In this document: positions 1-43,889 of the stretch, one piece after another | Layout: each line of letters starts with the position of its first letter | Position numbering within the stretch: the stretch's first letter is position 1 | From: a virus | IMG/VR virus record: IMGVR_UViG_3300010397_000024 | Location: 1-43,889 of that record | Reading direction: 5' to 3' (one strand) | DNA length: 43,889 nt | Position numbers and translations under genes: made by a program | The notes under the pieces: generated by a model | What the model was told of the DNA's origin: nothing | Database searches by the model: none | The model's input: only the letters and a program-made list of their open reading frames with translations

Positions 1-123
1 TCACGTCGGTCGGCGGCTCCGAGTGGTGCGCGATGTCGAACTCGCCCAGTTGGGCATAGGCGATCGCCACTTGCTCAGCCACCAGTTCTAGCGCTACGTC
101 CCAGTACTCGTGCTGGGTAGCCA
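1..123. repeat. Terminal direct repeat, left copy
   Basis: These 123 bases are identical to 43767-43889. The reading frame of the glycosyltransferase gene continues from position 1 into position 43766 without a break, so the repeat most likely reflects circular closure of an assembly, or a short terminal redundancy, rather than two separate loci. The unique genome length would be 43,766 bp. Confidence 0.95.
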
Positions 124-544
124 GTGGACAGAACGCTCCCGCCGCCTTGAGCCAGGCGTCGGTGAACCACGGGAAGTCCATCCGTCGGTCCAGCACGCAT
201 CTGGGGGCCAAAGCCCCAACCTTGCCGGGGAACAAGTCTCTTTGCCTGAGCACCCACTCGTCCCATCCCAGGCTGGTGAACTCGCAGTCGTCGGTCGCCG
301 CGCCGTAGGCCAGGTAGCCCGGATGGGCCCACTGGAGTTCATTCAGCGCTTTGCACTGGCCGATACGCTTACCCACCATCAGAGATGCCATGCTCTCCAC
401 CCCGTGGTAGATCTCGGCCTGATCCTCATCCACATAGACCGCGACGTCTGCCCGAGGTCCAGTTCTCATCACCGACTCGATCATGCGCTTCAGTTGCCGG
501 GGGCGGCTCCTAGAAGCACACATCACCAGGAGTTCCTTAGGCAA
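1..544 (-). CDS. GT-A-like glycosyltransferase, N-terminal part (continues at 43766-43627)
   Basis: The protein is split by the window ends. Reading from 544 to 1 and then from 43766 to 43627 gives 684 bases, 227 residues plus stop. It is a paralogue of the proteins at 2013-2687 and 2684-3370: an opening strand then CASRSRP (residues 9-15), an acidic triplet DED at 39-41, and a second acidic pair in ATDDCEF near 85. These resemble the nucleotide-sugar and metal-binding positions of GT-A folds. I chose TTG at 544 because it restores the first beta strand and matches the paralogues' lengths (224 and 228). GTG at 526 and ATG at 523 have a better AAGGAA ribosome site (538-533) and remain possible. 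The start overlaps the stop of the GT9-like gene. The sugar and acceptor are unknown. Confidence 0.8.
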   Translation of the reverse strand, partial: MPKELLVMCASRSRPRQLKRMIESVMRTGPRADVAVYVDEDQAEIYHGVESMASLMVGKRIGQCKALNELQWAHPGYLAYGAATDDCEFTSLGWDEWVLRQRDLFPGKVGALAPRCVLDRRMDFPWFTDAWLKAAGAFCPLATQHEYWDVALELVAEQVAIAYAQLGEFDIAHHSEPPTDV

Positions 545-1388
545 CGGGCACCGTCAGGTGCCTGTCGCGCCAAGCGGGCCATTCGGCCCTCAGTTCGGGC
601 TCGATCCGGTTCAGGTGGTTCGGCTGGAGGTTGTCCCATAGCTGCCTAGGATGGTCCCCGATCGGGTCGTGGACTCTGACCGAGTTGGTCTTCATCGCCC
701 CTGCCAGAGCCACCACGCTGGAACCCGTGCCGATCACCAGCTGGGAGATCTTCATCAGCCGTGCGAGTTCCAGGAAGCTCCCGTGGTCATCGAAGGTTTC
801 CCACTTAGGGTAAGTCCTCGCCCCGACCTCCAGGTCCCTTTCGCTGCCAACGAATACGATCCGATCGAAACGGTCTTTGAGTTCTTGCTGGATATCCGAC
901 AGGAACACCCAGAACTTGGGCGTACCCTTGGTGTTGGAATAGATCGCCTGACCGTGGAGCAGACAGATGCGCTCGCCCGAGGAGAAGCCGGGAACCTCGC
1001 CCGGCGCCTCGATCGTGGGGACGGTAGCTAGTTGGTCTTGCGTGACACTCAGACCCAGCTTGGAGTTGGTCAGGGTCTCCAGCGTCAGTTGGCGCTGGGG
1101 GAAGGTTCTGAATCCCAGATGCGTAACGTCTTTGTCCTGGAACTCGGAGGGCGGGAGGTCGAAGTGCCAAGGCTGGCCGCCACAGTTGTAGTTCTCTACC
1201 CCGGGCTTGAACTCGACCTTCTCGACACAGGGCTGCGCAGCAAAGAGCGGAGCCACCATGCTGCACGAACGCTCATCCATCCAGCAGGTGAACTGCTTGC
1301 CGTTCTCTTTGGCCCACCAATAAGCTACCGGCCACTGATGGATCGCATCCCCCGCCTTGCCAGGGAAAGTGAACACTGTCTCAGCCAT
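537..1388 (-). CDS. GT9/heptosyltransferase-like glycosyltransferase (GT-B)
   Basis: This 283-residue protein resembles the ADP-heptose/LPS heptosyltransferase superfamily (GT family 9). It opens with a strand followed by PGKAGDAIHQWP, in the place of the family's GD...P loop. Its C-terminal half has a VFVGSERDLE strand-loop, then a helix and LVIGTGSSVVALAGAM, the nucleotide-sugar binding region of GT-B folds. It is a little shorter than typical heptosyltransferases (about 320-350). The start overlaps the FkbM gene stop by 8 bases and has a strong AAGGAGAGG ribosome site. It probably adds a sugar to a phage or host glycan together with its neighbours; the donor is not readable. Confidence 0.7.
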   Translation of the reverse strand: MAETVFTFPGKAGDAIHQWPVAYWWAKENGKQFTCWMDERSCSMVAPLFAAQPCVEKVEFKPGVENYNCGGQPWHFDLPPSEFQDKDVTHLGFRTFPQRQLTLETLTNSKLGLSVTQDQLATVPTIEAPGEVPGFSSGERICLLHGQAIYSNTKGTPKFWVFLSDIQQELKDRFDRIVFVGSERDLEVGARTYPKWETFDDHGSFLELARLMKISQLVIGTGSSVVALAGAMKTNSVRVHDPIGDHPRQLWDNLQPNHLNRIEPELRAEWPAWRDRHLTVPVA

Positions 1389-2016
1389 CTGACCTCTCCT
1401 TCGCCCATAATACGTTCCAGCCGTAACGGCCCACTCTCAGGTACCCGGCCGCTTGCATCGCCCGTTGAACCGGAGTCGGGCCATCTTGCTCTACCACGTC
1501 CTCGATCAGCATGTAAGTCGGTTTCCAGCGCTTGAGGTTGAAGCCCTTGAGAACTTCTGGCTCCCTGCCATCTACGTCAATCGATACAAAGTCGATGGGG
1601 TCCTTGTGGTCCCAGGCTTCCAACAACGAGTCCAGCGTTGTCACTCGAACCTTGCGAATTGTCGCATGGTGGCTGGCCGCGCTACAGAACCGTTCCCGGA
1701 AGTCCTCGTCGAGGTCGCCTACCGTAGCCACCACCTCCCGGTGGGCACCTCCTGGGTTGGCGTAGGAATAGAAGTCCTCTTCGCCCTCATGGCCCAAGCA
1801 GGCGCACAGGACTACGTGCTTCCGGGTCTTGATCAGGTCTTCCGCCAAGTCTGGGTTGGGCTCGACACACAACACGTTCCAGCCGTTTTCCTCTAGCAGC
1901 AAGGTATTGCTCAAGGTCTTGCCGTCGCCTGCGCCTACTTCCACTGCCGTGCCGACGTAGCCGTTAGGGAATAGCTTGAGAACCTCGTCGTCCTCGCCGT
2001 CGTCCGAGTAAGTCAT
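1381..2016 (-). CDS. FkbM-family SAM-dependent methyltransferase
   Basis: This 211-residue protein is recognisable as an FkbM-type class I methyltransferase. Motif I is EVGAGDGK (residues 26-33), the strand-2 acidic motif is VEPNP (51-55), and the FkbM signature region is DVDGREPEVL (147-156). FkbM enzymes O-methylate sugars or polyketides. The ATG at 2016 overlaps the TGA of the preceding glycosyltransferase (ATGA); a longer in-frame reading to 2148 would lie inside that gene and is unlikely. It is placed between two glycosyltransferases, so O-methylation of a sugar they transfer is the natural inference. Confidence 0.85.
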   Translation of the reverse strand: MTYSDDGEDDEVLKLFPNGYVGTAVEVGAGDGKTLSNTLLLEENGWNVLCVEPNPDLAEDLIKTRKHVVLCACLGHEGEEDFYSYANPGGAHREVVATVGDLDEDFRERFCSAASHHATIRKVRVTTLDSLLEAWDHKDPIDFVSIDVDGREPEVLKGFNLKRWKPTYMLIEDVVEQDGPTPVQRAMQAAGYLRVGRYGWNVLWAKERSDG

Positions 2017-2687
2017 GCGGCCGCTATCGCCGCACGGAGCCGCTGTACCGCCACCGGACGTTCGGTCACGCACCAGGTTAGAAACGCCGCGGTGTCGGCT
2101 TGGTAGTTGGCCATGTTCTGCGCTAGCCCTTGGTGCTTCATCAGCCACTTATCTCTGGGGGCGTAGACGATGTTGGTGGCATCGCCTAGCAGTTCGTGCA
2201 TGGTGTCCCAGCAGAAGTGGTAGATCGTGGGGTGGGCGTACCAGCCTAGCGTGTTGATCCACTCGCGGGAGACACAAGGGTAGTTGAGGAACGCACCCTG
2301 ATCGTGAGCGGCTGAGACTACCCCGATCCTTCCAGGGAAGCCTTCGAGCGTGTCCAGCGCATAGGTGTCCCAGCCGGGAGTGACGAACTCGGCATCATCG
2401 GGGGCCGCGCAGAAGGCCTCATAGGGCCTTTGAGTCATGGAGTTCCGTTCGGCCGAGAGTCTCATGCTCAGGTAGGCTGAGCCGTTGATCGAGGCCCCAG
2501 GACCGATTTTGGGGCCGTACTCGAACCAGACTCGTTCGGGAACCTTCAGGCTGTCATAGAGCACCTTCTGGTCGTCGTCCAATCTCACCACCAAGTGGGC
2601 GACGGTGCTGGTCTTGACGAAGCTCGCGACCATGCGTTCTAGATGCTCAGGTCTTCCTCGGCTGGGGCAGATGATCAGAATGCTCAA
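2013..2687 (-). CDS. GT-A-like glycosyltransferase, paralogue 2
   Basis: This 224-residue protein begins with the strand ILIICPSRGRP, typical of small GT2-like GT-A enzymes, with DDD at residues 37-39 as the likely metal/nucleotide-sugar motif and a second acidic motif PDDAEF at 96-101. TTG at 2687 is chosen because it overlaps the TGA of the preceding gene (TTTGA) and places the first strand at the N-terminus. Extension to 2792 would overlap that gene by about 100 bases and adds low-complexity sequence. It is a clear relative of 2684-3370 and of the gene across the joint, implying local duplication. The substrate is unknown. Confidence 0.8.
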   Translation of the reverse strand: MSILIICPSRGRPEHLERMVASFVKTSTVAHLVVRLDDDQKVLYDSLKVPERVWFEYGPKIGPGASINGSAYLSMRLSAERNSMTQRPYEAFCAAPDDAEFVTPGWDTYALDTLEGFPGRIGVVSAAHDQGAFLNYPCVSREWINTLGWYAHPTIYHFCWDTMHELLGDATNIVYAPRDKWLMKHQGLAQNMANYQADTAAFLTWCVTERPVAVQRLRAAIAAA

Positions 2688-3370
2688 ACCGGCACCACTT
2701 GGGCGTTGATGGCGTCCCTGACCCGGTCCACGATCGGCATCAGCTCTCTGGCTACGAACGGCAGAAAAGCCTCGGTATCGCGACTGGCCCATACCTGGTT
2801 AGCGGTCATCATCAGGTCGTGGTCGATGTTGAACCGCTCCTTGGGGGCATGGACGATCGCCGTCATCTCGCCGATCAGCGCAATCACTAAGGGCCAGACA
2901 AAGTGGTGGGCGATCGGGACCGCGAACCAGCCGGTGGCCTGGATCCACTCTTTGGTCACAAACGGCATGTCTACATGCGGGCCTTGGTTGTGGGCGGGAG
3001 AGACCACCCCTACCCGGTTAGGCAGGAACGCGGCCACGTCGAGACACCACTCGGCCCACTGGCCGGTCGTTACCACCGCGTCATCTGGGATCAGGCCGTA
3101 GAGATCGTAACCTGGAAACTCTTTTACCAAGGCGTTGGCCGATGCTACCGGGCCAATCCTGGGGCCGATGTGGACTGACATCCGAGACCTGAGTTCGGAC
3201 CTGGTCCGGGCACAAGTAGCCTCGTAGAGGTCCGACTGGTCGTCGTCCACGTAACCGATCAAGTCAGCTCGGTTGGTGGTCTTCATGATCGACTTGGCCA
3301 GGTTGACGAACTGAGCCGGCCGACTCCGGCTGGGGCAGAGCACCGCAACTCTCCCACTCGATAGGGTCAT
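2684..3370 (-). CDS. GT-A-like glycosyltransferase, paralogue 1
   Basis: This 228-residue paralogue of the previous protein has VAVLCPSRSRP at the N-terminus, VDDD at residues 41-44 and IPDDAVV near 94-100. Both copies share an order of motifs further on (NQGPH or DQGAF, then a W-containing segment and a late H). The ATG at 3370 overlaps the TGA of the FkbM gene. The two copies differ enough that recent duplication is unlikely, so they may transfer different sugars. It is in a continuous operon with the methyltransferases. The function is inferred from fold-like motifs only. Confidence 0.8.
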   Translation of the reverse strand: MTLSSGRVAVLCPSRSRPAQFVNLAKSIMKTTNRADLIGYVDDDQSDLYEATCARTRSELRSRMSVHIGPRIGPVASANALVKEFPGYDLYGLIPDDAVVTTGQWAEWCLDVAAFLPNRVGVVSPAHNQGPHVDMPFVTKEWIQATGWFAVPIAHHFVWPLVIALIGEMTAIVHAPKERFNIDHDLMMTANQVWASRDTEAFLPFVARELMPIVDRVRDAINAQVVPV

Positions 3371-3975
3371 GGGAGAAAGAATAGATCGTTGAACGCCTGC
3401 TGCTGGATGCGGGAAACCTTGGTGTATCCCAAGGCCGCTAGGTAGCCGTCAATCGGGCCCGACAGGTCCCAGCACTCGGTCACGATCACCTTGGGCTGCC
3501 ACTTCTTGAGGTCGATGCCTTTCAGGACATTCAGTTCGGTCCCCTCGGTATCCACGCATAGCACATCGAGTTGCGGAAACTGGTGCTTGGCCAGCAAGTC
3601 TTCCACCCTAGCCACCGGCACTTCGATCTTCTTCCAGTCGTGATACATCTCCCTGCCCCTGGCCGCCACCTCGCCGATGGTGGAATAAGCCTCTGGCCCA
3701 TCGACGTTGATGGTCATCGTAGCTACTCCACCGAACTCGCCGCAGGCACACTTCTCGACTAGCCCCCGGTGCTGGGTGAGCCAGTCCCAGAACTCTGGGT
3801 TGGGCTCGACGCTCAGCACTTTCCACCCCCGAGCCAGCTCCAGCCCATAGGTGCTGTTGCAGGTTTGCCCATCAGAAGCCCCGATATCCACCGCGTAGCC
3901 CTTGTAGAGCCGGGGGAAGTAGCTACTGATGATGTCTGCCAGCCCATAGTTGGGTGGATGTCTGATGTGCGGCAT
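3367..3975 (-). CDS. FkbM-family SAM-dependent methyltransferase, second copy
   Basis: This 202-residue class I methyltransferase has DIGASDGQ (30-37), SVEPNP (55-60) and CVDTEGTELNVLKG (140-153), the most diagnostic FkbM stretch. It is more canonical than the copy at 1381-2016. The start overlaps the preceding stop by one base (TGATG). Two FkbM enzymes in one phage operon suggest methylation at two positions or on two sugars of one glycan. Protein or lipid-linked acceptors cannot be excluded. Confidence 0.88.
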   Translation of the reverse strand: MPHIRHPPNYGLADIISSYFPRLYKGYAVDIGASDGQTCNSTYGLELARGWKVLSVEPNPEFWDWLTQHRGLVEKCACGEFGGVATMTINVDGPEAYSTIGEVAARGREMYHDWKKIEVPVARVEDLLAKHQFPQLDVLCVDTEGTELNVLKGIDLKKWQPKVIVTECWDLSGPIDGYLAALGYTKVSRIQQQAFNDLFFLP

Positions 3976-4160
3976 CAGGCAGCCGGCGCTTCCTTGGGCT
4001 TCCGCTTGGCCGGCCGCTTCATCGCCTTGTGGACCCGGAGGCCAATCTCGTAGCCCAAGAGCTGCGGCGGGAGGTCTGGGTCGTACGAGGCACGGATCGA
4101 GATGCCGGGTTCGCCGGGTGGGAAGATGCCAATCTGGACGATCAAAGATCGCTGAGCCAT
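3975..4160 (-). CDS. Small basic protein of unknown function
   Basis: This 61-residue protein follows a strong AGGAGG ribosome site 4 bases before ATG 4160; a TTG just upstream is too close to it. The N-terminal half is likely beta-rich and the C-terminal third is very basic, rich in Lys, Arg, Pro and Ala. It is the first gene after a gap that holds a promoter-like sequence and leads into the FkbM/glycosyltransferase operon. I do not recognise the family. Confidence 0.65.
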   Translation of the reverse strand: MAQRSLIVQIGIFPPGEPGISIRASYDPDLPPQLLGYEIGLRVHKAMKRPAKRKPKEAPAA

Positions 4161-4263
4161 CAAGCCTCCTTTGGTACGAACGCGGCAGTTTTAGCTACGA
4201 ACGCCCCTTGCACTTTTCGCGGAGCGGAAACATCCTGCTCTTAGGTTCCGGTGTAGGTTTGTC

Positions 4264-4272
4264 TTTATAGCA
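4264..4272 (-). promoter_or_regulatory. Extended -10 promoter candidate for the glycan operon
   Basis: Read on the minus strand this is TGC-TATAAA, an extended -10 box, lying 9 bases after the stop of the 4279-5502 gene. No clear -35 box is visible, which extended -10 promoters tolerate. Transcription would start near 4257, giving a leader of about 95 bases that contains an imperfect hairpin at 4214-4230. It would drive 4160 and onward into the glycosyltransferase and head genes. Confidence 0.4.
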
Positions 4273-4278
4273 CGACTC

Positions 4279-5502
4279 TTACAGAACTATCTCGATGTTA
4301 GGCAGTGGCATGACGAAGCTGGCACCGGCTTCCAGCGTGGCCCGCTCCCGCTTCAGGAACTCTTCCTTGAAGGCGTAGGGACCGACCAGGATATAGCCTG
4401 GCATGTTCGCCCGCATCGCTTCCTCGGAGACGATCGGCGTCCAGGATCCCACCATCCTGAGGTTGTACTTCAAAGGGTTACGCTCGGCCGCTCCCAGGAA
4501 GCTCTCGTGGCTGTCCAGGTACTGGAGCATCACCGTCATCTTGGTGCTGGCGCCGTAGATCCAACAGCCTCTCTGAGCGAAGGGACCGTGGCAGAGATCC
4601 AGCATGCGCTCTTTCCACTTATGGACGCGCTGGGCGAAAGCCTGAGCGTCCGCTCGGGTGGCCTTCTTGATCCCTAAGAGGTCCTCTCTCTGGCGGGTGG
4701 ACTTCCGAGCTACCACCCTCATCGAGCCACCGTTGACTTCGTTGTGGGTCACCCTGGTGATGGTCAGCCCATGCTGGCGGTAGAGGTCGGCCAGGACGTG
4801 GATGTCGTAGTAGGTCAGGTGTTCATGACAGATCCCGTCGAACCCGTTCTTCTCCAGCATGGTCGGGCTGTCGTTCAGCTGGTTGATCCAGATACCGTCG
4901 CTACTCAGGACATCGTGGATGTCCCTCACGAACTTCCCAGGGTCATCCAGGTCGTAGAACATGGCGCAAGAGGTGATGACGTCGTAGGGACCAGTACAGG
5001 CGCTCTTGGAGAAGTAGTCCGTTACCACTCGCTTGGCGTGCTGCTTGAGACTGTCGGCGAAGTCCAGCGCCGGCTCACAAGCGGTCTTGTGGAAGGTGTC
5101 TGGCACCTGGGACAAGAGGTAGCCGTCGTTGGCGCCGATATCCAGCCAGGTGCCGAAGCGGTGGTACTGGAGCGCGTTCTCGACCACGTTGGAGAGGGCG
5201 TCCTTCATGGTCTGGTTGATGGATGAGCGATACCAGTACTTGCGGAACAGGAGGTCGTTCTTGACGGTGTGCTCTAGCTGGAGCAGTCCGCAGTTGTTGC
5301 ACCGGACGAGATGGAGCGGGGCTCTTGGCAGGCCGTAGTCGATGTCGGGGACGAACCTCGGGATGAACTGCTCTCCCAGGTCCAGCACCGGCTCTAGTTC
5401 CGAGGCGTAGCAGGCTCGGCACTTGGTGATGGTGTCGTAGATCGGCTCTAGGACGGTCCGAGTATCATCCTTGGCGCTGAACTTGATCGTCGTCCGTTCC
5501 AT
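4279..5502 (-). CDS. Sugar C-methyltransferase-like protein with zinc-binding N-terminus
   Basis: This 407-residue protein has the three-part layout of the NDP-hexose C-methyltransferase group (Methyltransf_13 zinc domain, SAM domain, C-methyltransferase C-domain). Four cysteines in CRAC (28, 31) and CNNC (68, 71) form the zinc site. The SAM motif is LDIGANDGYLL (120-130). The C-terminal part contains WIYGASTKMT, typical of the C-terminal domain. Family members C-methylate deoxysugars and some relatives act on other substrates. The AAGGAG ribosome site overlaps the terminase stop. It sits between packaging and glycan genes and is likely part of the glycan set. Confidence 0.82.
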   Translation of the reverse strand: MERTTIKFSAKDDTRTVLEPIYDTITKCRACYASELEPVLDLGEQFIPRFVPDIDYGLPRAPLHLVRCNNCGLLQLEHTVKNDLLFRKYWYRSSINQTMKDALSNVVENALQYHRFGTWLDIGANDGYLLSQVPDTFHKTACEPALDFADSLKQHAKRVVTDYFSKSACTGPYDVITSCAMFYDLDDPGKFVRDIHDVLSSDGIWINQLNDSPTMLEKNGFDGICHEHLTYYDIHVLADLYRQHGLTITRVTHNEVNGGSMRVVARKSTRQREDLLGIKKATRADAQAFAQRVHKWKERMLDLCHGPFAQRGCWIYGASTKMTVMLQYLDSHESFLGAAERNPLKYNLRMVGSWTPIVSEEAMRANMPGYILVGPYAFKEEFLKRERATLEAGASFVMPLPNIEIVL

Positions 5503-5512
5503 CGGACTCTCC

Positions 5513-7237
5513 TTAGAGGTTCCTCAAGGGCTCTCTGGGATTCTCGGCGCGCCATCTCGACGTCTCGTCGTCATCCCACATCCGTGAGTCAAGGCCATCC
5601 ACTTCTATCAGTTGCGCGCCGCGTTCCCAAGGGGGTTTTTGGTTCTGCTTGGCTCTCATTGGCTGGTAAAGCTCAGGCTGGAAGGCGTCCGCGTGGGCGT
5701 CTACGTAGTCATCCTTCATCTTGGGGTTGACCATCATCTGGCCGATCTTGGCCATCTGACCCAAGAGGCTGTCGATCCCAGGACTGCCCTTGATCCAGCG
5801 AACGTGCCCATCCACCCAGAAGGTGGCGGCGTTGACGATCCTCTCGATCTTCTTGGGGCCCTTGTTGCGGTTGAACTCGTAGAGCCGCGGCATCGGAGTC
5901 CGGTCGGCGTCGTTGAAGAAGTTCCTGAGTGCTAGTTCCAGCGTCCCAGCCCTGCCACCGGAAGAGAACATGTCACCAGCTAAGGCCATGACGTGCCTGC
6001 CCTGTTGCTTGTAGCGCTGGACGATGGACACCATCTTGTGGGCGAAGTCTTCCGCTCGCCAGAGAGGACTTCCATGGACTTCGCAGATATAGACGTCGCC
6101 ACTGCCGCTTCGGGGGTAGCCGTGGACGATGATCACTGTCTCGTCCTTGGCGACACGTCTTTCGCCATGAGCGAAGGCGGTATCGAAGCAGATGGCGTAC
6201 CTCAGAGCGTTCCAGGGGACATCCTTGCTCTCGACGCCGCACTGCTGGATCTGATCCCGCGTGATGGGGTTGAACTCCGAGATGGCGGGGTCGTTCAGTA
6301 CCTGAGCCGCATACCTCAGCGGGTCCCTGCGCTGGTAGCGTTTCAGCCGGTCCTCGGGCCAGGTTTTGGGGGCGGTCGGCCTCTCGTCCTTGTCCCTGGC
6401 GCTGAGGAAGTAGACATGCCATCTACCGTCCTCTGAGGTGGTGATCGAGTCGGTCTCCATCCCAGAGAGCGTGGCGACGCCTTCATCTCTAAATGAGATG
6501 CCGAAGTGATCTTCATCGTCGTACCGCGTGCCTACCCAGACGACGAGACCGTCTGCTTGGACTACCGGGACCATGCTCGTGACCTGAGAATTCACGGTGG
6601 CCAGCCAGTTGGTGTCGGAGGTCATGCGCTCATAAGAGATTGGGTCGTCGTGGATCCAGACGTCTGGATGGGCTCCCACGATCGAGGTCTCGACGGCGAA
6701 GGTGCCGAAGCTGGGGTCCTTCCTACTGGTGTTCTTCCTCGCCGCGTGGGTGATCTCCTTGCCGGTCCAGCTTCTCGCCTGGGTACTCCAGTTGCCGTAG
6801 AGGGTGTTGAACATGGCGTAGGGGTCGGAGCCGTCTAGTACCGCCTTCATGCCACCGAGGATCTTCTGGGACAGCTCGGTGCGCTCGCTTCCGACGTAGA
6901 TGCTGACCTCGGGGTCTCTGACCTGTATCCAGAGCTGCAGCGCTTGGGAGAGGGTGGTCTTGCCGAGCTCTCTAGGGATCACCAGGGCCAGATGAGTCTG
7001 CTCGACGATGCCGTTGGCCCGGCGCTCGAACCAGGCGTCTACGTGGAACTGGAACCAGTCGGCGACTGGCTTATGGAGCTTCTCGTCGATCCACTTCTCG
7101 CCCTTGGGGTTGATGCCGGCGCCAAAGGCGTAGAGGAAGAAGGCCCAGAAGTTCTGGCGGCAGCGATGCCTTAAGAGTTCGAGTTCGTCCTCGTAGGGCC
7201 AGACCTCACAGAGTTCACGCGGTTTCCGCAGGTACAT
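5513..7237 (-). CDS. terL: Terminase large subunit (packaging ATPase/nuclease)
   Basis: This 574-residue protein drives genome packaging into the prohead. The ATPase half has a P-loop variant PRELGKTT (88-95), a Walker B-like DVWIHDD (192-198, Asp in place of the usual Glu) and a coupling-type segment VWVGTRYDDED. The C-terminal RNase H-like nuclease shows an acidic strand ICFDTAFAHG, a central GD pair after HVMALA, and a late DDYVDAHADAF. The length is usual for the family. It overlaps the end of the preceding candidate small-subunit gene by 23 bases. The packaging mode cannot be read from the sequence. Confidence 0.95.
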   Translation of the reverse strand: MYLRKPRELCEVWPYEDELELLRHRCRQNFWAFFLYAFGAGINPKGEKWIDEKLHKPVADWFQFHVDAWFERRANGIVEQTHLALVIPRELGKTTLSQALQLWIQVRDPEVSIYVGSERTELSQKILGGMKAVLDGSDPYAMFNTLYGNWSTQARSWTGKEITHAARKNTSRKDPSFGTFAVETSIVGAHPDVWIHDDPISYERMTSDTNWLATVNSQVTSMVPVVQADGLVVWVGTRYDDEDHFGISFRDEGVATLSGMETDSITTSEDGRWHVYFLSARDKDERPTAPKTWPEDRLKRYQRRDPLRYAAQVLNDPAISEFNPITRDQIQQCGVESKDVPWNALRYAICFDTAFAHGERRVAKDETVIIVHGYPRSGSGDVYICEVHGSPLWRAEDFAHKMVSIVQRYKQQGRHVMALAGDMFSSGGRAGTLELALRNFFNDADRTPMPRLYEFNRNKGPKKIERIVNAATFWVDGHVRWIKGSPGIDSLLGQMAKIGQMMVNPKMKDDYVDAHADAFQPELYQPMRAKQNQKPPWERGAQLIEVDGLDSRMWDDDETSRWRAENPREPLRNL

Positions 7238-9024: not shown

Positions 9025-9873
9025 TTAGTCTTTAGTGCCTTTGTTCTTGTTAGTCTTACGTCCCATCATCCATTCGCCGAGCTTGTTCCTGCGAGACGTA
9101 TCGTAGGTAGCCACAAGCACTCTGGCCACCGCATGAGCCATCGATCCCTTGTAGAAGTCCCTCACCCCACGCGCCTTTCCGATCAGGCCGGCCGAACCAC
9201 CACTGAGCGCGGCCAGTCGTCTCTCGAATGACTCCAGGTCCATCTCGTGGGCATGGCGGTGAAGAACGAGCCCCAGTCCGACCAAGATGTCTCCGTTGAG
9301 CGCCGTTGGGGTATCTCCCCAGGCCCCAATCGCCAAGGTCAGGACCTGGCGAAGGATCTTGCCAGAGTCGTCCATCCGATACAGCCGACGCAGAGACTGA
9401 ACAGCCGATACGGTTCTCTGGCTGGCGCTTTGGCCCACTGTGATGCCGCAGTCCTCGACCGTCCGATTGATAGCAATGCATTCGGGATCTCCGGCCGTGA
9501 CGCTGACCCGGAATCGATCGAGGGCGCGCGGGGCCCTGGTGGTATTCCGTCCGACGAACAACTCCGCGGCCTGCTGATCGGTGATACCGTGAACCGTTTC
9601 ACACTCCATCAGGGAGTCGTTGCCACGGGCCATTACGGTTGCCCAACGCCGATGATTCCCATCGAGGACAATGGCGCGCCTGCCGCCTTTGCCGTTTTTC
9701 ATCCAGACCAGTGGCTTGCCGAGCAGGTTGGGGTCATAGTTGGCAGCGATCTTCTTGGCCCAATGCTCCTCATAGGGGCGCTGCAGGCGTGGGTCTACGT
9801 CCATCTCGGACACCGGAACCCACTCAATGCTTGACTGGTAGCTAGGACGGCTCTTCAAGTCGGCCTTCGTCAC
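9025..9873 (-). CDS. ParB/sulfiredoxin-fold protein (DUF6551-like)
   Basis: This 282-residue protein has an N-terminal ParB-like domain: a VPVSEMDVDPRLQRP strand-turn (19-33), the region GKPLVW, and the signature LDGNHRRWAT (70-79) equivalent to the DGxHR motif that binds nucleotide in ParB and sulfiredoxin relatives. The C-terminal two-thirds is helical, as in phage DUF6551-type proteins. GTG 9873 overlaps the stop of the preceding ParB-like gene (GTGA). It could bind DNA or act on DNA or protein. Its relation to the parS site at 7800 is a hypothesis, since a canonical ParB HTH is not obvious. Confidence 0.75.
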   Translation of the reverse strand: MTKADLKSRPSYQSSIEWVPVSEMDVDPRLQRPYEEHWAKKIAANYDPNLLGKPLVWMKNGKGGRRAIVLDGNHRRWATVMARGNDSLMECETVHGITDQQAAELFVGRNTTRAPRALDRFRVSVTAGDPECIAINRTVEDCGITVGQSASQRTVSAVQSLRRLYRMDDSGKILRQVLTLAIGAWGDTPTALNGDILVGLGLVLHRHAHEMDLESFERRLAALSGGSAGLIGKARGVRDFYKGSMAHAVARVLVATYDTSRRNKLGEWMMGRKTNKNKGTKD

Positions 9874-10634
9874 GGGTTGACTCCCTTCTTCAGTTTTTTA
9901 CGCCAGCGGACAAGCGTCCTGATCACCTGAGTTAGCCTTTTCTCTACGCCTGGAAGAGGCGAGGCGGGCAATTTGGCTAGCCCCTCCGAGTAGGTTTCTA
10001 GTGCGGTCAGGGCGCGTTCAAGCTTGGCGGGGGACTGGTGGATGTTGCCTGAGTGTGGATTGCGGGGCTTGGTTTTCTTCCAGCTGCTGGTCATGTTCGG
10101 GGGCGTGAACGAGCGCATGGCGTCGGAGATCCCCATGTCGCCGGCCTCGACCGCCGCAATGACTTCCGGCGAGGCGTGCTCCAATACCTGCTTGGCCCGG
10201 CCAACACTCGACATCGATGACCCGGTCAACTCCGCCGCCTCCCCCCTGGTCAACGGTTTTCCTCCTAACTCGTTGGTGCTGGCCGTTTCTAAAACCTCCT
10301 CATTTGAGTCGGTTTTCTTCGGCCTGCCACCAGAAAGAGTTGCTAGCTTGGCCGAGTAAATCGCCTTCTGTCCTGTGGTGTAGTGCGTTCTCAACAGGTT
10401 GAGTGCCGTGGCGAAATCTGGCGCATTCGACGAATCCGGAATGGTCACTACCAACGGCTCTCGGTTCAACGCCTGGCAAGCCGCCAGACGCTTGCGACCA
10501 TCAATCACTCGCCCCCGCCACAGCACTATCGGCACCTGCTGGCCGATTCGCTGGATGCTCTCCCTGAGCGCCACCACCGCCGTTGGCGCCAAATCCGGCG
10601 AAGCGGAACTGATGGGATCCACCTCGATCGTCAT
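9870..10634 (-). CDS. ParB-like DNA-binding protein with HTH
   Basis: This 254-residue protein shows the ParB N-terminal domain with RVIDGRKRLAACQAL (42-56) and, after a Gly/Lys linker, an HTH-like segment TRGEAAELTGSSMSSVGRA (129-147) followed by ASPEVIAAVEAG, a pattern common in ParB/RepB and phage KorB-like proteins. ATG 10634 overlaps the antitoxin stop (ATGA). The missing long C-terminal dimer domain sets it apart from chromosomal ParB. No ParA is encoded nearby. It may bind parS, regulate transcription, or both. Confidence 0.8.
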   Translation of the reverse strand: MTIEVDPISSASPDLAPTAVVALRESIQRIGQQVPIVLWRGRVIDGRKRLAACQALNREPLVVTIPDSSNAPDFATALNLLRTHYTTGQKAIYSAKLATLSGGRPKKTDSNEEVLETASTNELGGKPLTRGEAAELTGSSMSSVGRAKQVLEHASPEVIAAVEAGDMGISDAMRSFTPPNMTSSWKKTKPRNPHSGNIHQSPAKLERALTALETYSEGLAKLPASPLPGVEKRLTQVIRTLVRWRKKLKKGVNP

Positions 10635-11181: not shown

Positions 11182-11212
11182 TTGATTCAGCGCTGGGCGT
11201 ATGTGGTATGCT
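11182..11212 (+). promoter_or_regulatory. Leaderless promoter of the first HNH gene
   Basis: TTGATT (11182-11187), a 19-base spacer and TATGCT (11207-11212) as -10. The -10 ends exactly 6 bases before ATG 11219, so transcription should start at or next to the A of ATG. No ribosome site precedes the ATG. The same TATGCT-N6-ATG arrangement occurs at 11706-11720. Confidence 0.6.
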
Positions 11213-11218
11213 GGTGGC

Positions 11219-35432: not shown

Positions 35433-35948
35433 ATGTTCCGCAAACCATTTACCGCCCAAGACGCTGACCGATTCTGGTCCAAGGTCGATAAGTCTGACGG
35501 CTGCTGGCTCTGGCGCGGCGCCTTGTTCAGCAACGGATACGGGCAGGTGTCGCGCACCGGAGGCGGGATAGGCGCGCATCGAGTCTCCTGGTTTCTGGCG
35601 TATGGCCCAATCCCTGATGGGCTCTTCGTCTGCCATCGCTGCGACAACCCTCCCTGCGTAAACCCCGACCATTTGTTTCTGGGAACCGCCAAAGACAACA
35701 GGCTGGACATGATGAGCAAGGGAAAGACAACCCGGCCGTCTCAGCCAGTCCGAGGGGAGATGCATTTCTGGGCCAAGCTCACCGAAGACGATGTTCGCTC
35801 GATCAGAGACCTTGCCGCTATCGGCCAGACCCAGCGAGCCATCGCTGGCCAGTTCCATATCGCGCCAAGTCGCGTCTGCGACATCGTCAACCGCAGGTCC
35901 TGGGCACACGTCAGGCAAAATCCCAAGATATCCAGCGGGTCGATCTAG
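35433..35948 (+). CDS. HNH homing-type endonuclease on the opposite strand (copy 5)
   Basis: This 171-residue protein has CWLWRGALFSNGYG, IGAHRVSWFLAYGPIPDG, then CHRCDNPPCVNPDHLFLG, and a C-terminal segment AKLTEDDVRSIRDLAAIGQT with an HTH-like end (IAPSRVCDIVNRRSWAHV). It is closest in layout to copy 4. It runs opposite to the virion operon and overlaps the 3' end of the connector gene by 38 bases, marking it as an inserted element. ATG 35433 is favoured by its -10 box; GTG 35415 is possible. Confidence 0.9.
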   Translation: MFRKPFTAQDADRFWSKVDKSDGCWLWRGALFSNGYGQVSRTGGGIGAHRVSWFLAYGPIPDGLFVCHRCDNPPCVNPDHLFLGTAKDNRLDMMSKGKTTRPSQPVRGEMHFWAKLTEDDVRSIRDLAAIGQTQRAIAGQFHIAPSRVCDIVNRRSWAHVRQNPKISSGSI

Positions 35949-36825
35949 AATCCCCGTAGTAAGGCAGCGCCCCCGGCGTAAAGCCTAGATCGTTATCTGG
36001 GATGCGCGTTTGTTCAGCTAACATCGTGCGGATCCCATCCTGCGCCAAGGAGAACCAAGTCTGGCCCTGGGCCTTGCGTTGTTCACCCTTATCGGTCAGG
36101 AAGTGCCACTTGGCCCAGGCGATCGGGATGAACTCGTAGTCCGCTGGGACGTCCAGGTTGGCACTGACACTAGAGGCCGAAGCCACCGAGAAAGCCCGGT
36201 AGTATCGCTGCTGGAGGAGATCCGAGCCTGCAGGCGGAGGCAGGAGCCGTACCTTGCTGGATCCACCGAGCATGAACAGGTCGTACCAAAACGGCGTTGA
36301 GGCTTGCAGCTCGTCGGTACTCGCTCGGTCGTAGGGCCTTCTCGCCGCGTAGATCAACGGCCGCTGGCTGCTCAGCAGCTTGACCCCGTACTCGGTCCTC
36401 ATGTCGCTCGGAGCGTCGTACATGTCCCGAGTGAAGGTGGCGGTGATCGCTGAACCACCCGCTGTAGGGGCTACGGTGGTCGTAAAACCACTTGCGGCGG
36501 TGGATGCGACTCGGGTGCCGTAGAGGTAGCCGTTCGCCGATACGATGTCATCTATGGCGATCGTATGGCCCGCGGCACAACTGGCCGAGACGGAGTTGGC
36601 CGTGGCCGAGACGCTCCCGTTGGAGAAAGGCCCAGTCACGATCTGGACTGGGTACTCGGCTCTGAGGAAGTCCCAGTGGGCCTTGCCACCGATGAACTGG
36701 AAGGCGGCTCTGAGAGACGTGTGGGCCCGGGTGGTCATCTCGGTGTCGGCCGAGGCTCCGATGCTGTCGGCAATCTGCTGGACCGCCGTCGCCCAAGGAA
36801 TCGTGCTCTGCCTGAAAAGGGCCAT
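35911..36825 (-). CDS. Head-tail connector/adaptor-type protein
   Basis: This 304-residue protein sits after head genes and before the nozzle gene, where podoviruses encode the adaptor (P22 gp4, T7 gp11 type). The N-terminal half is helical (AVQQIADSIGASADTEMTTR), followed by Ser/Thr-rich strands and a C-terminal helical part with FIPIAWAKWHFLTDKGEQRK. AAGGAG precedes the ATG. The C-terminal 12 codons overlap the antisense HNH gene. Confidence 0.65.
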   Translation of the reverse strand: MALFRQSTIPWATAVQQIADSIGASADTEMTTRAHTSLRAAFQFIGGKAHWDFLRAEYPVQIVTGPFSNGSVSATANSVSASCAAGHTIAIDDIVSANGYLYGTRVASTAASGFTTTVAPTAGGSAITATFTRDMYDAPSDMRTEYGVKLLSSQRPLIYAARRPYDRASTDELQASTPFWYDLFMLGGSSKVRLLPPPAGSDLLQQRYYRAFSVASASSVSANLDVPADYEFIPIAWAKWHFLTDKGEQRKAQGQTWFSLAQDGIRTMLAEQTRIPDNDLGFTPGALPYYGDSRSTRWISWDFA

Positions 36826-36834
36826 CCTGGCTCC

Positions 36835-38148
36835 TTAGGCTGGTTGTGGCTCTTCCTCTTGCTTCTGAGCGGCTTCGTCTTCCGCCCTGATCTCTTCCCA
36901 CTGCTCGTCGCTGACCCGGGGCTGCTCGCGCTGCCGATCCTCCCTCAGCCGGTGCCAATGAGCCACCCACTCGGGAACCTTCTTCCGGGCGTCCCGGTTC
37001 TCTGACACCCAGTCCTTGGCGTTGGCTGCCAGTTCCTTCCGCTTCTGGGTGTCCTCGATCAAGAGACCGAGCTTTTCCTCGAACTCCTTGGGGTCCTTGA
37101 ACAAGAGCCCGGTCTCGCCTTCAACGATCTCGTGCTTATAGGCACCCGAGTGCTGGGCCAGCGTGGCGGCGGGGTTCTTCAATACCGAGGCTTCGTAGAA
37201 CTTGATGGCGCTCCTACAGGTGTTGAAGACGTGGTCCTGGAGGGGTGCTAGCGAGATGTCGTGCCCGATCGTTGCCAGTCTCAGCCGGTACTCGTTGTAA
37301 GGGCACCAGTCCTTGTAGGTGTACCGATGGGGCGGGATCAGCTCGTTCACCCAGTGCCACTGAGCGCCCCAGATGATCCAATGGACCTGAGGGTACTTCC
37401 GGGTGATGCTGCCCAAGGCCTCTCTTAGAGGGCACCAGTCCTCGAAGTGGGCCGCCCCGCCTTGCCAAAGGATCTTGACCTTGTCGGTCTCTTTGATGTC
37501 TACCTGCTCGTAGTCGTTGAACCTGACCAAGTTCGGGAACACGTCCACCCGTCTGGGCTTGACCTCTTTCAACAAGGACTGCTTGACCGCCTCGGTGGAA
37601 CAGGTCACCGCGTCCACCATGCTGAGGATGTTCTTGTAGCCCATCAGCATGTTCTTGTTGCGCTGGATGTCGAACCCGTTCTCCCCCTGCCGCCAGTGGA
37701 TCTGCCGCTTCCCCTCCTGAACCGACCCAATCTCCATCGGCTTGCCGTCTACGAAGGCCGGCAGGTCGTTCCCCTCCATGTCCCGGAAGCCCAAGGTCTT
37801 GTAGGCCGGGTTGAAAGGGCTGACGTTGAACAGATTGTCGTCGGTCTCCACGATCACCGTAGGCGGCCACTTCCAGCCCTCGTCGGTCTTGCTAGGAATA
37901 AACGCCTGGACCTGCTTGATGTTGTGGGTCGGCATCTCGCCGACTGGCTGGTACATCAGGACCAAGTCAGCGTTGGCGAAGTTCGCAATCCGCTCGTCGG
38001 TCGGAACACCCATGTCGTTGGTGTCGATATAGGCACGGATGTTGAGGCCCAGTTCCACCGCGGTTCTGAGCGGCACCGCCAGGCGGTAGTAGTAGCTCGC
38101 CGAGGCCGTGTGCGGGATCGAGGTGTAGACGGTCAGGGGTCGCTTCAT
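36835..38148 (-). CDS. GT4-type glycosyltransferase (GT-B) among virion genes
   Basis: This 437-residue protein has the GT-B layout: an N-terminal domain with a Tyr-rich region (HTASASYYYRLAVPL), a middle strand KVKILWQGGAAHFEDW, and the donor-site region CRSAIKFYEASVLKNPAATL followed by EIVEGETGLLFKDPKEFE, the classic end of Glycos_transf_1 domains. The C-terminal 40 residues are charged and helical. It is coupled by overlap to small virion genes. It may glycosylate virion or host structures; the donor is unknown. Confidence 0.9.
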   Translation of the reverse strand: MKRPLTVYTSIPHTASASYYYRLAVPLRTAVELGLNIRAYIDTNDMGVPTDERIANFANADLVLMYQPVGEMPTHNIKQVQAFIPSKTDEGWKWPPTVIVETDDNLFNVSPFNPAYKTLGFRDMEGNDLPAFVDGKPMEIGSVQEGKRQIHWRQGENGFDIQRNKNMLMGYKNILSMVDAVTCSTEAVKQSLLKEVKPRRVDVFPNLVRFNDYEQVDIKETDKVKILWQGGAAHFEDWCPLREALGSITRKYPQVHWIIWGAQWHWVNELIPPHRYTYKDWCPYNEYRLRLATIGHDISLAPLQDHVFNTCRSAIKFYEASVLKNPAATLAQHSGAYKHEIVEGETGLLFKDPKEFEEKLGLLIEDTQKRKELAANAKDWVSENRDARKKVPEWVAHWHRLREDRQREQPRVSDEQWEEIRAEDEAAQKQEEEPQPA

Positions 38149-39466: not shown

Positions 39467-40429
39467 TTACGTGTTGATGACGCCCGTCATGGCGCCCCAG
39501 CTCGACGGATGGTCGATCTGAAGCGTGGCCTCCATCAGTACGATGCCCTGGGTGTTGTCGCCGGTCTTCCCCATCGGCTTGTGCTGCGGGGGACGGAGGA
39601 CGGCCAGCTTGGCCATGCTGCGGTCGCCCATGTAGTAGGCACCCGAAGCCACCGCAGTCAGCGGGATGAACCGATCGGTGATGACCGCAAACAACTGGCC
39701 GAACGGGGATTCGAAGATGTCCACGTTCATGCTGAGCCGGTTGTCCACCGCCGCGATGTTCCGAGCGTTGATGGTATTTCCGCTCGACGCCAGGAAGAAC
39801 TGGTACTTGCTCCGAGGGGCGAACCAGAGCGAGTCCGGCTCGGCACCGTTGGTAAACATCTTCTCCGCCAGCGCCACCAGGTCAGCCGTCAGCACCACGC
39901 CAGAGGCCGAGGCGGAGGTGAAGATGGCACCGTTGCCGAAGGTGCCGAGGAATCCCGACATCCTGGGCGGAGTGCTCGCCGTAATGCCCGAGGCCGACTG
40001 GGCCGAAGCCACGCCGATGGTCCAGAAACGGGACTCGATATTCCGGGCAATGTCCTTGAATCCCTTCATCACCTGGTGCTCGTAGAAGTCCCGGATGCCG
40101 GCCGGACGCACCACGCGCTCGCGGTCGGATACCTGGACGTCCACCCGGAAGATCTGGGTGTAGTTCCAGAGCCTGACCGGGGTGGTCATCGAGGAAGGCA
40201 CGAAGGCGCTGCCTTCCGCCGCGTTCGTGCTGCCGGTGGCCGTCGCGTCCAGCGCGTCGATTGCCCACGAGTGGACTACGTCGGTCGCCCGGATCTTGGG
40301 CATGGAGGAGAACATCGGCGTCTGGAACGAGTCGATGATCGTCACCATGTCCATCAGGTCTTCGTGCTGCGGGGCCGTGGTAAGTGGCCATGAACCTACG
40401 TCATAGGTAGTTCCTGATGCAGCAGCCAT
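39467..40429 (-). CDS. Major capsid protein, SU10/DUF5309-like
   Basis: This 320-residue protein resembles the SU10-type major capsid family: an N-terminal EDLMDMVTIIDSFQTPMFSS segment, HSWAIDALDATATGSTNAAEG, a helical domain with RDFYEHQVMKGFKDIARNIE, and a C-terminal region with NVDIFESPFGQLFAVITDRF and a final beta part. It forms the HK97-fold shell. ATG has AAGGAG. It lies directly after the scaffold gene as usual. Confidence 0.85.
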   Translation of the reverse strand: MAAASGTTYDVGSWPLTTAPQHEDLMDMVTIIDSFQTPMFSSMPKIRATDVVHSWAIDALDATATGSTNAAEGSAFVPSSMTTPVRLWNYTQIFRVDVQVSDRERVVRPAGIRDFYEHQVMKGFKDIARNIESRFWTIGVASAQSASGITASTPPRMSGFLGTFGNGAIFTSASASGVVLTADLVALAEKMFTNGAEPDSLWFAPRSKYQFFLASSGNTINARNIAAVDNRLSMNVDIFESPFGQLFAVITDRFIPLTAVASGAYYMGDRSMAKLAVLRPPQHKPMGKTGDNTQGIVLMEATLQIDHPSSWGAMTGVINT

Positions 40430-41164: not shown

Positions 41165-41467
41165 TTATGGCGCGGAAGGTTGGCCTTGGGCGGCTTCCGT
41201 GCCGTTCGCTGCTTCGCGCTGCTGGTTTGCACGGTTCACTGTAACTTCGTTCTGGAACGCTGACAAGACGTACTCGTAGACTCCCAGCGCTCCGCGGATG
41301 CCATCGTCGCTGACGCCCTTCCAGGTCCCCTCACGGTTCGCCAAGGGGATACAGAGCGCCTTGATCGCCGCTTGGCCCTGCTGGGCGATGATCGGCATCA
41401 TCACCTCGCGCCAACCGCCGGTCTGGAGCGTCACTGCCAGTTTGTCGCACTGCTCGTTGGAAAGCAT
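41165..41467 (-). CDS. Small helical head-assembly protein, unknown
   Basis: This 100-residue protein overlaps the portal stop by one base (TGATG) and lies before the scaffold. It is helical (CDKLAVTLQTGGWREVMMPI) with a Gln/Ala-rich tail. Many SU10/P22-like phages have a small gene here. Not recognised. Confidence 0.65.
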   Translation of the reverse strand: MLSNEQCDKLAVTLQTGGWREVMMPIIAQQGQAAIKALCIPLANREGTWKGVSDDGIRGALGVYEYVLSAFQNEVTVNRANQQREAANGTEAAQGQPSAP

Positions 41468-43380
41468 CAGATCGCTCCTAGCGGTTGCGGCCCCTGGACG
41501 TTCATCTGCTGTCCCAGGATGCCGGGGCTTAGTTGCTCCAGGTTCGTGGCCCCTGGGGCAGCCTCGGCGCCCTGCGGGGCGCCCTGGCCTTGCTGGGCCG
41601 CCATGAGATTGACCATGCTGGGCTGGCTGTTCAGGAAGTCCTGGAAGTTGGGGTAGTCAAAGAGTTGGAAGCCTTGTTTGAGCCAGTTGGCCCAGTTGAC
41701 GATCTGGATCGCCGCCGGGTTGGTCTGCATCATCTGGCTAAAGGCGATGTAGTCCTGCTGGCGGATGCTCCGGCCTAGCATCTGAGAGGCCCCCACGGCT
41801 CGGGCCTTGTAGTCCGAAGCGAAGTCGTCCTCATCCACCGTCACCCGTTCTTGGTAAGGCATGCCAGTGATGGCGTTGACGCTGGCAATCGAGCCGATGT
41901 ACTTGGTGTAGGGCTTGGGCAGGAGCCTTCTATCAAGTTCCCAGAAGGCATTTGCCAAGGGTTCTACCATCCCTTGCTCGATCGCCAGGCTCTCCATCGC
42001 CACCCGGGTTAGGGCGTTCTCCTGGCGGCCGAGGAACCCTCGTGCCGTCTCTCTGCCCCCACCCCCACCCCCACCCATCAGGGCCTCGGTCTGGCCGGTG
42101 CCGAGCTGCATGAAGCTGAACAACTGCTCGATCTCAGAGTTCCCGAGTTGGACGTTCCGCATGTCGGGGCTCAAGGGCCGGATGTTGGAGTCGTCGGCCG
42201 GACCATCCACCAGGATCACCCGTCCGGTTCTTGAGAACAGATTCTGGGTGTTGATGTTGGCGGTGTTGGAGACCACCCACTGGTTGTCCAGCAAGAGGTC
42301 CACCGCATCGAGCTTCTGGTTGTTGATCCGGTCGGCGGTCCGTTGAGGTCCAAAGGCGATCTCGGCCTTGGAGATACCGTCGAACCCATAGCCATCGCTC
42401 ATCGGGCTACAGGCGATGAAGGGCTTGGCCTGGTTGGGAAGCTGGGACTCGCGGTTCTTGAGGACCACCCGCTCGTTGCCGATGGCGATACACCTCGACC
42501 TGATCCCCGAGGTAGCGAACTCGCTGGGCACCAGGCCGTGCATCTCCCATATCTCGACTGGCTTGGCGAAGCGCTCATTCTGGCGCGCTTGGTAGTCATA
42601 CTCGTTCCGGTAGGCCACCTGGCGTTGCTGGAGTTCGGTCTGGCCACCGGTCGTCACCGGGAAGTCTTTGAGCATCTGGACTGCGGCGCGGTCGAAGTAT
42701 GGATAAGGACCTTCGGCGTCTTCCAAAAGGTCGTCCAGGTCGGCCCAGTAGCGGTGAATCACCCAGGCCATGTCGTCAATCCGCTTCCTGGCCGGCTGCT
42801 GCCAGAAGTCCAGCCGGTCCACCACTTCCCAGGTCGGACCGTTGAACAGCTCGGCGGTGTAGTCCCGTTGAACTGGGACGCTGAGGCCCGGAGCGACTTG
42901 CTCGTAGCTGGTCACCCGGTTCTTGCGGGTGACGTTCTTCCAGCCGTATCTCAGAACCCCGGTGCCGCAGATATCGGCCTGAAGGAAGAAGTCGATCGCC
43001 CGGATCACCGAGTCGCAATCCTTCATCTGGGCCGAGATCAGCATCTCCGCCTTCTTGGCGGATCCTGAGTCTTCTGGCGCGTAGCCCTCGAAGTTGACGA
43101 TCGGCCAGGCACCGAAAGAGGTCTGGACCTTCCGTGCCACGTCCGACTGGATCATGGCGAAGGTGAAGGGGATCGAGATGTCGTTCCTGAAACTGGACCG
43201 GCTCGACCTCGCGACACCACGGTAGGTGTCGTAGTAGTGCTGGATGCGGGTAAAGTGGGTGCGGTTGTAGCGCAGGCTCTCTTGTCTGCGGCTATCGACC
43301 AGTTCGATCACCCGGCGCCAGTCGGGGTAACTGCTGCGCGTGGCCTCGCCGGTATTAGGATTCTTGCCTGCGCTAGCCAT
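41467..43380 (-). CDS. Portal protein
   Basis: This 637-residue protein has the portal style: an N-terminal helical region (WRRVIELVDSRRQESLRYNR), IQHYYDTYRGV, a central core with ILISAQMKD-type helices and ICGTGVLRYGWKN, and a Gly-rich loop LMGGGGGGGRETARGF before long C-terminal helices and a Gln-rich tail. It forms the ring for DNA entry and exit. The Gly loop is encoded by a GGTGGG hexanucleotide repeat near 42057-42080. Confidence 0.9.
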   Translation of the reverse strand: MASAGKNPNTGEATRSSYPDWRRVIELVDSRRQESLRYNRTHFTRIQHYYDTYRGVARSSRSSFRNDISIPFTFAMIQSDVARKVQTSFGAWPIVNFEGYAPEDSGSAKKAEMLISAQMKDCDSVIRAIDFFLQADICGTGVLRYGWKNVTRKNRVTSYEQVAPGLSVPVQRDYTAELFNGPTWEVVDRLDFWQQPARKRIDDMAWVIHRYWADLDDLLEDAEGPYPYFDRAAVQMLKDFPVTTGGQTELQQRQVAYRNEYDYQARQNERFAKPVEIWEMHGLVPSEFATSGIRSRCIAIGNERVVLKNRESQLPNQAKPFIACSPMSDGYGFDGISKAEIAFGPQRTADRINNQKLDAVDLLLDNQWVVSNTANINTQNLFSRTGRVILVDGPADDSNIRPLSPDMRNVQLGNSEIEQLFSFMQLGTGQTEALMGGGGGGGRETARGFLGRQENALTRVAMESLAIEQGMVEPLANAFWELDRRLLPKPYTKYIGSIASVNAITGMPYQERVTVDEDDFASDYKARAVGASQMLGRSIRQQDYIAFSQMMQTNPAAIQIVNWANWLKQGFQLFDYPNFQDFLNSQPSMVNLMAAQQGQGAPQGAEAAPGATNLEQLSPGILGQQMNVQGPQPLGAI

Positions 43381-43391
43381 CCGTGGCCCTC

Positions 43392-43634
43392 TCAGTAAAC
43401 TTTGATCTGTGGGTTTACCTCGGCAGCGCCCGTTGCCACCGCCTTGGACAGTATCACGTCAATCTCAGCCATCAACTGATTCCGCTGGGTGTTGAGCGTG
43501 TCGAGCTTCTTCACTAGGTCCGGACTGAGTCCTACGTTCTCACGTGAAGCCCGATGGACTTCGTCCTGGACGAACCACAGCTTGAGATTCGTCACCGAGA
43601 GCTTGTCCACTAGCGAGCCCAGAGTGTCAGACAC
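43392..43634 (-). CDS. DUF4254-like short protein
   Basis: This 80-residue protein starts at GTG 43634 behind AAGGGAGG and matches the core pattern of DUF4254: SLVDKLSVTNLKLWFVQDEV followed by LNTQRNQLMAEIDVIL. Bacterial DUF4254 proteins are longer and occur in LPS and glycosyltransferase clusters. Here it follows a glycosyltransferase whose stop it overlaps by 8 bases, so it is probably part of the glycan set. It lies just before the portal gene. Confidence 0.65.
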   Translation of the reverse strand: MSDTLGSLVDKLSVTNLKLWFVQDEVHRASRENVGLSPDLVKKLDTLNTQRNQLMAEIDVILSKAVATGAAEVNPQIKVY

Positions 43635-43889
43635 CTGCGGCCTCCCTTAACACCTGGATCATCAGCCTTCGGTTGTGGGCCAGCCAGGCACATACCCATC
43701 TGCCATCTTGCGAGTTCCTCAGCACCCAGATGGCGGTCTCTAGCGGGATGGCGTGGGGGTTGTCGGTCACGTCGGTCGGCGGCTCCGAGTGGTGCGCGAT
43801 GTCGAACTCGCCCAGTTGGGCATAGGCGATCGCCACTTGCTCAGCCACCAGTTCTAGCGCTACGTCCCAGTACTCGTGCTGGGTAGCCA
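43627..43889 (-). CDS. GT-A-like glycosyltransferase, C-terminal part (continues at position 123)
   Basis: This is the end of the gene described at 1-544. The last 73 or so residues (VAEQVAIAYAQLGEFDIAHH onward, then IPLETAIWVLRNSQDGR) correspond to the C-terminal ends of the paralogues at 2013 and 2684. The open frame extends through the terminal repeat to the window end, so the gene is 5'-truncated only because of the linear representation. An internal ATG at 43848 is not the true start. Confidence 0.8.
   Translation of the reverse strand, partial: ATQHEYWDVALELVAEQVAIAYAQLGEFDIAHHSEPPTDVTDNPHAIPLETAIWVLRNSQDGRWVCAWLAHNRRLMIQVLREAAGV
43767..43889. repeat. Terminal direct repeat, right copy
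   Basis: Exact copy of positions 1-123. See the left copy. Confidence 0.95.

Follow-up and report, generated by a model that had tools for sequence, protein, structure and literature searches.

A glycosyltransferase and methyltransferase island between the terminase and portal genes of SU10-like phages and its putative virion target

Why would a phage carry a row of enzymes for sugar transfer and methylation among the genes of its head? The question is raised by IMG/VR virus record IMGVR_UViG_3300010397_000024, in which such enzymes fill the space between the genes for the large terminase (TerL) and the portal protein. The whole record of 43,889 bp is referred to here as the window; since an end-repeat comparison shows that its last 123 bp repeat the first 123, we regard it as a complete circular phage genome with a unique length of 43,766 bp. 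We propose that, in this SU10-like phage, the product of the island is probably a short methylated glycan attached to one or more of the virion proteins. An earlier note, made from the sequence alone, had described a sugar-transfer and methylation island at this position, and this description is now backed by the protein families and folds, by the conservation of catalytic residues and by synteny across the clade.

Genes and enzymes of the island

All eight genes named in the earlier note are present between terminase and portal, on the minus strand and in one block (Table 1). Counted from the terminase, the order is a sugar C-methyltransferase (CMT), FkbM2, the glycosyltransferases (GTs) GT-A2 and GT-A1, FkbM1, GT9, GT-A3 and a DUF4254-like gene, followed by the portal. 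The note had placed its last two genes across the joint of the circle: GT-A3 does cross it, with a joined frame of 230 codons after removal of the 123-bp repeat (window 43767–43889 = 1–123), and the DUF4254-like gene lies beyond it, but the GT9-like gene does not cross. Two gene starts were also revised; TTG at 2687, which gives GT-A1 a 4-bp overlap with GT-A2, is likelier than 2792, and ATG at 2016 is likelier than 2148 for FkbM1. A ninth sugar gene (GT4-like) had been overlooked. The seven enzymes occupy 12.3% of the genome, or 12.8% with the DUF4254-like gene and 15.8% with all nine genes, in agreement with the earlier estimate of more than 10%.

Overlaps of 4–8 bases link FkbM2, GT-A2, GT-A1, FkbM1 and GT9, resembling a translationally coupled operon. 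The sole large gap of the island, 303 bp between CMT and FkbM2 (3976–4278), holds no convincing gene, and no sigma-70-like promoter was found inside the island, including this gap. The open reading frames are not products of chance, because homologues occur in about 60 contigs, active-site residues are kept (42–83 sequences per family), and the ratio of non-synonymous to synonymous substitution rates (dN/dS) is well below 1. Recent import of the island was considered and rejected, because its GC content and its GC content at third codon positions (GC3) resemble those of the head genes (GC3 of 0.71–0.84 in island genes and 0.75–0.86 in head genes).

The three CMT domains recognized by Pfam, namely the N-terminal zinc, S-adenosylmethionine (SAM) and C-terminal domains, are complete. 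CMT residues 24–406 align to the D-mycarose 3-C-methyltransferase TylC3 (4rv9, E=7.3e-33), and TcaB9 was also matched. The phage enzyme is a remote homologue of the two by sequence, but it shares their full-length architecture, zinc cysteines and an E-H pair, which we take from TcaB9 to be the catalytic pair; the four zinc cysteines and this pair are conserved at 93–98% in 42 phage sequences, in which the C-H-E-H motif is kept. CMT homologues with 33–36% identity also occur in other phage contigs (L019–L030) of up to 190 kb. Both FkbM1 and FkbM2 exceed the cut-offs of Pfam PF05050 and NCBIfam TIGR01444.

The GT-A proteins had no match in Pfam or NCBIfam, nor did GT9, for which Pfam PF01075 gave none at E≤1 (protein) or E≤10 (genome); therefore, we used structure prediction for both. 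AlphaFold modelled GT-A2 with a predicted local distance difference test score (pLDDT) of 94.5 and a GT-A fold, as the earlier note had anticipated. The model had 372 matches in the PDB at E≤0.001, and the 50 listed are glycosyltransferases, with GT2-type enzymes (E down to 8e-9) that include wall-teichoic-acid and polysaccharide transferases and GalNAc-transferases. The acidic metal- and nucleotide-binding residues D42 and D96–D97, together with H184, are conserved in 97–98% of 66 sequences (numbering in the trimmed alignment runs 4 lower). A PDB sequence search with the GT-A and GT9 profiles returned nothing significant. The three paralogues of the window sit in different parts of the GT-A tree, indicating that the gene duplications predate the compared phages. 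Homologous GT-A proteins (22–26% identity, profile E=4e-24) are encoded by Streptomyces phages, namely Samistivirus and its relatives; however, these are large phages with the GT-A genes beside a nucleotidyltransferase, and the FkbM, CMT, GT9 and DUF4254 profiles were unmatched in the region fetched around that pair.

For GT9, the label in the earlier note is supported by the predicted structure and by profile–profile comparison, although not by Pfam or NCBIfam. The 25 best PDB structures for the GT9 model were all GT9-type heptosyltransferases (WaaF, Veillonella GT9 3tov, WaaC and TibC, the last of which we take to be a protein heptosyltransferase), and hhalign of the phage GT9 against four E. 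coli GT9 enzymes gave a probability of 92.9 and E=3.7e-7. The phage GT9 shares with WaaC, WaaF and TibC the GT-B fold and a G-D motif near the N-terminus, invariant as G13–D14 in the phage set and as G12–D13 in the E. coli set. It differs from them in lacking a Pfam GT9 match and equivalents of WaaF D269 and H274; this Asp and this His occur without exception in the four E. coli enzymes, and a G-x-G-S-S stretch stands in their place in the phage clade. ADP-heptose was therefore rejected as the default donor, and the phage GT9 probably uses another one, as judged from these residues.

The 80-residue DUF4254-like protein scored 33.8 against a PF14063 cut-off of 27, with the halves matched in swapped order: residues 1–30 align to profile positions 72–101, and residues 41–68 to positions 35–62. 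From this alignment, it looks like a circularly permuted mini-form. The GT4-like protein additionally matched PF13524 slightly below the cut-off.

By their Pfam profiles, the capsid, portal and adaptor proteins are of the SU10 type. The terminase is weakly similar to podophage terminases (24% identity), the portal had no match in the annotated phage collection searched, and a nucleotide-level search of the window against phages gave no match. Scans of the genome found no tRNA and no Rfam family. The earlier description as lytic-type is compatible with the absence of tyrosine or serine recombinase profile matches in the genome. Two neighbouring ParB-like genes (9025–10670) stand upstream of the terminase block in this genome without a recognized integrase, and at least four HNH-endonuclease matches (11201–11686, 15808–16455, 17358–17861 and 21893–22369) are many for a 44-kb phage.

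Table 1. Island and head genes of the window, with coordinates in window numbering
Feature	Coordinates	Strand	Evidence and remarks
CMT, sugar C-methyltransferase	4279..5502	-	PF08421, PF13489 and PF08484, all above cut-off
FkbM2, FkbM-type methyltransferase	3367..3975	-	PF05050 E=1e-18; TIGR01444
GT-A2, GT-A-fold glycosyltransferase	2684..3370	-	phrog_14945 E=7.6e-15
GT-A1, paralogue	2013..2687	-	PHROG glycosyltransferase match; 38% identical to GT-A2
FkbM1, FkbM-type methyltransferase	1381..2016	-	PF05050 E=1.2e-15
GT9-like GT-B glycosyltransferase	537..1388	-	AlphaFold pLDDT 86.3; profile–profile match
GT-A3, third paralogue	553..1 then 43766..43631	-	phrog_14945 E=5.1e-7; spans joint
DUF4254-like protein, 80 aa	43392..43634	-	PF14063 E=3.6e-8
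GT4-like GT-B glycosyltransferase	36835..38148	-	phrog_7162 E=2.3e-25; between capsid and adaptor genes
Large terminase (TerL)	5513..7237	-	phrog_38 E=7.7e-31; upstream boundary of island
Portal protein	41467..43380	-	PF23899 SU10_portal E=6.6e-15; downstream boundary of island
Major capsid protein, SU10 type	39467..40429	-	PF17236 E=3.5e-54; candidate acceptor
SU10-type adaptor protein	35911..36825	-	PF24175 E=9.5e-7

Gene content in related phages

We searched IMG/VR with the terminase, CMT, GT9 and portal as queries. Prevalence was taken from the portal-based search, the GT9 rate of 100% among loci found with GT9 being circular. The portal search gave 62 distinct loci, of which 50 include 1 kb or more of sequence ahead of the portal. 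The co-occurrence that the earlier note had proposed to look for was found: every in-clade locus with at least 1 kb in view (46/46) has GT9 upstream of the portal, as opposed to 0/4 outgroup contigs (L140, L143, L144 and L145), whose portals are 30–37% identical. CMT, GT9 and FkbM occur together in 26 of the 27 non-outgroup portal-search loci with the terminase in view, the single exception (L130) carrying CMT, GT9 and GT-A. The island lies within a TerL–portal–capsid–GT4–adaptor gene order, and the GT4-like gene is conserved across the relatives. By the portal-based search, the island marks a phage clade.

In 28 of the 30 loci that have both ends, the first recognized gene behind the terminase is CMT, and in 26 of them GT9 stands last ahead of the portal if DUF4254 is disregarded; relatives that have a DUF4254-like gene usually carry it directly downstream of GT9. 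Between these ends the FkbM and GT-A genes range from 1 to 8, with 1–4 FkbM and 0–5 GT-A genes in most loci, and four loci (L004, L016, L080 and L082) carry FkbM and GT-A genes upstream of the terminase instead. Phages with nearly identical heads can differ in this middle. L064 and L067 have portals and terminases that are 99% identical, and L064 has one more GT-A and one more FkbM gene; the portals of L006 and L075 are 95% identical, with FkbM and GT-A proteins at most 28–53% identical. In L050, which has the portal nearest to that of the window (88%), GT9 is just 51% identical and DUF4254 79% identical. Across the full set of pairs, however, GT9 and CMT follow the portal to a similar degree as the capsid and GT4 (rho 0.56–0.61), indicating that fast turnover is confined to the middle genes and single cases. 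Median dN/dS values were 0.11 for CMT, 0.05 for FkbM, 0.10 for GT-A and 0.07 for GT9, compared with 0.04 for the portal and 0.09 for the capsid; judged by these values, the enzyme families are under purifying selection, so that content varies and the enzymes stay functional. We hold it possible, if somewhat less likely than not, that the island is a dedicated glycan-variation locus with fixed ends (CMT on one side and GT9, often with the permuted mini-DUF4254, on the other) and a recombining GT-A/FkbM middle, giving near-identical heads differing methylated glycans.

The enzymes are also found together elsewhere. The order GT9–DUF4254–FkbM–CMT recurs in L090, a divergent SU10-like contig, and in the 105–126-kb phage contigs L091 and L094, and CMT, FkbM and DUF4254 lie close together in the 735-kb phage LR756501; this recurrence in other phages argues for a joint pathway. 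In the 105-kb phage L091, the one read, the cassette adjoins a GDP-mannose 4,6-dehydratase (GMD) and an epimerase. The CMT substrate is suggested to be a 4-keto-6-deoxy sugar, which would have to be made by the host here because no GDP-mannose-dehydratase-type gene (PF16363) was matched in the window genome. In two outgroup contigs, the terminase–portal slot holds other sugar or methyl-transfer genes, namely a different methyltransferase (L140) or a DegT-type aminotransferase (L143, 4265–5374). L140, which has no island, carries NeuB and a GNAT acetyltransferase downstream (14078–14929 and 14853–15356).

Target of the predicted glycan

In Corndogvirus, a Cluster O mycobacteriophage, an O-methyltransferase and three tandem GTs are reported to modify the capsid and tail tube proteins (PMC11600133 and PMC4351075); the result on Corndogvirus virion glycosylation is that of Freeman et al. 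2023, as cited in PMC11600133 and PMC12619734. We used the genome of Firecracker, a Corndog relative, for comparison. In both systems, a methyltransferase and several small GT genes are tightly packed in the terminase–portal–capsid block. However, the Corndogvirus block is located at portal–protease and the present island at terminase–portal; in addition, the Corndogvirus enzymes are a TylF-type O-methyltransferase and GTs of which two are GT2-like and GT25-like, and C-methyltransferase, GT9 and DUF4254 are not in the block. The island-clade profiles did not match Firecracker gp33–36. Since these enzymes are not homologous by sequence, the likeness is one of kind and not of descent.

In the proposed mechanism, CMT would methylate a nucleotide-4-keto-6-deoxy sugar supplied by the host, and a near-universal GT-B enzyme, either GT9-like or GT4-like, would attach the first sugar to protein. 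The GT-A paralogues would then lengthen the chain and the FkbM enzymes would O-methylate it. Such a glycan may shield the virion against binding proteins, proteases or predators, or may tune adsorption. GT-A and FkbM genes are often gained, lost or replaced, and a different glycan would therefore be expected on each phage. The presence of TibC among the fold neighbours of GT9 fits a protein acceptor. We favour the virion as the target because of the head-operon position and the variable content of the island, the lack of clear membrane-spanning proteins in it, the lack of thymidylate-synthase family genes (PF00303 and PF02511) in the genome, and the reported function of the analogous Corndogvirus genes.

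The same enzymes could instead alter host surface or lipid-linked glycans, thereby preventing superinfection or releasing progeny from the debris of receptors. GT9 is the family of the lipopolysaccharide heptosyltransferases, FkbM and C-methyltransferases are also found in surface-glycan loci, and in a large phage the cassette is part of a cluster that resembles a polysaccharide locus and includes GMD, epimerase, GT2 and GT4 genes. Nevertheless, we consider this unlikely: the lack of a clear membrane-spanning protein weighs against classical O-antigen conversion, the proteins identified in the island include neither a flippase nor a Gtr-like protein, a head operon is a late position for superinfection exclusion, and the lack of an integrase profile match makes stable serotype conversion unlikely. 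Hypermodification of phage DNA with a glycan as protection against restriction appears very improbable, even though phage-encoded transferases are known to glycosylate phage DNA (Pyle et al. 2024, as cited in PMC12619734) and the window phage also encodes a DNA methyltransferase. A PF00303 or PF02511 gene to make the modified base is missing, the folds matched best are those of glycosyltransferases for polysaccharides, wall polymers and proteins, and the genes lie among head genes rather than replication genes. We give slightly less weight still to a counter-defence role, in which the product of the enzymes would be a small glycosylated molecule or a modified host protein; the quick turnover of GT-A and FkbM would fit an arms race, but the terminase–portal slot is fixed across the whole clade, and early counter-defence genes are usually located outside such head-gene slots.

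Several points nevertheless weigh against a glycan on the virion. The acceptor protein is putative; the Ser/Thr/Pro-rich stretches of the structural proteins are modest, with no enrichment at the C-terminus of the capsid protein. The genes of the Corndogvirus precedent lack sequence homology to the island enzymes, as described above. Scans of genome contigs with the GT9 and portal alignments, made in search of the host, found no relatives, and the clade is known from its sequences. Ser/Thr-rich tails did not point decisively to a single acceptor.

Implications for environmental phages

Virion glycosylation has been documented in a few mycobacteriophages. The present island would add an independent, clade-wide and far more variable enzyme set in uncultured SU10-like phages, and the gene contents, which form a natural series, could serve to connect the enzymes with glycan structures. 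Caution is also needed when glycosyltransferases in environmental viruses are taken for host-metabolism genes, as here they belong to the head operon and are near-universal in the clade. A glycan-variation locus, if real, would be the virion counterpart of bacterial O-antigen variation. If the variation in gene content reflects real glycan variation, selection for particle sugar coats in the environment would become testable.

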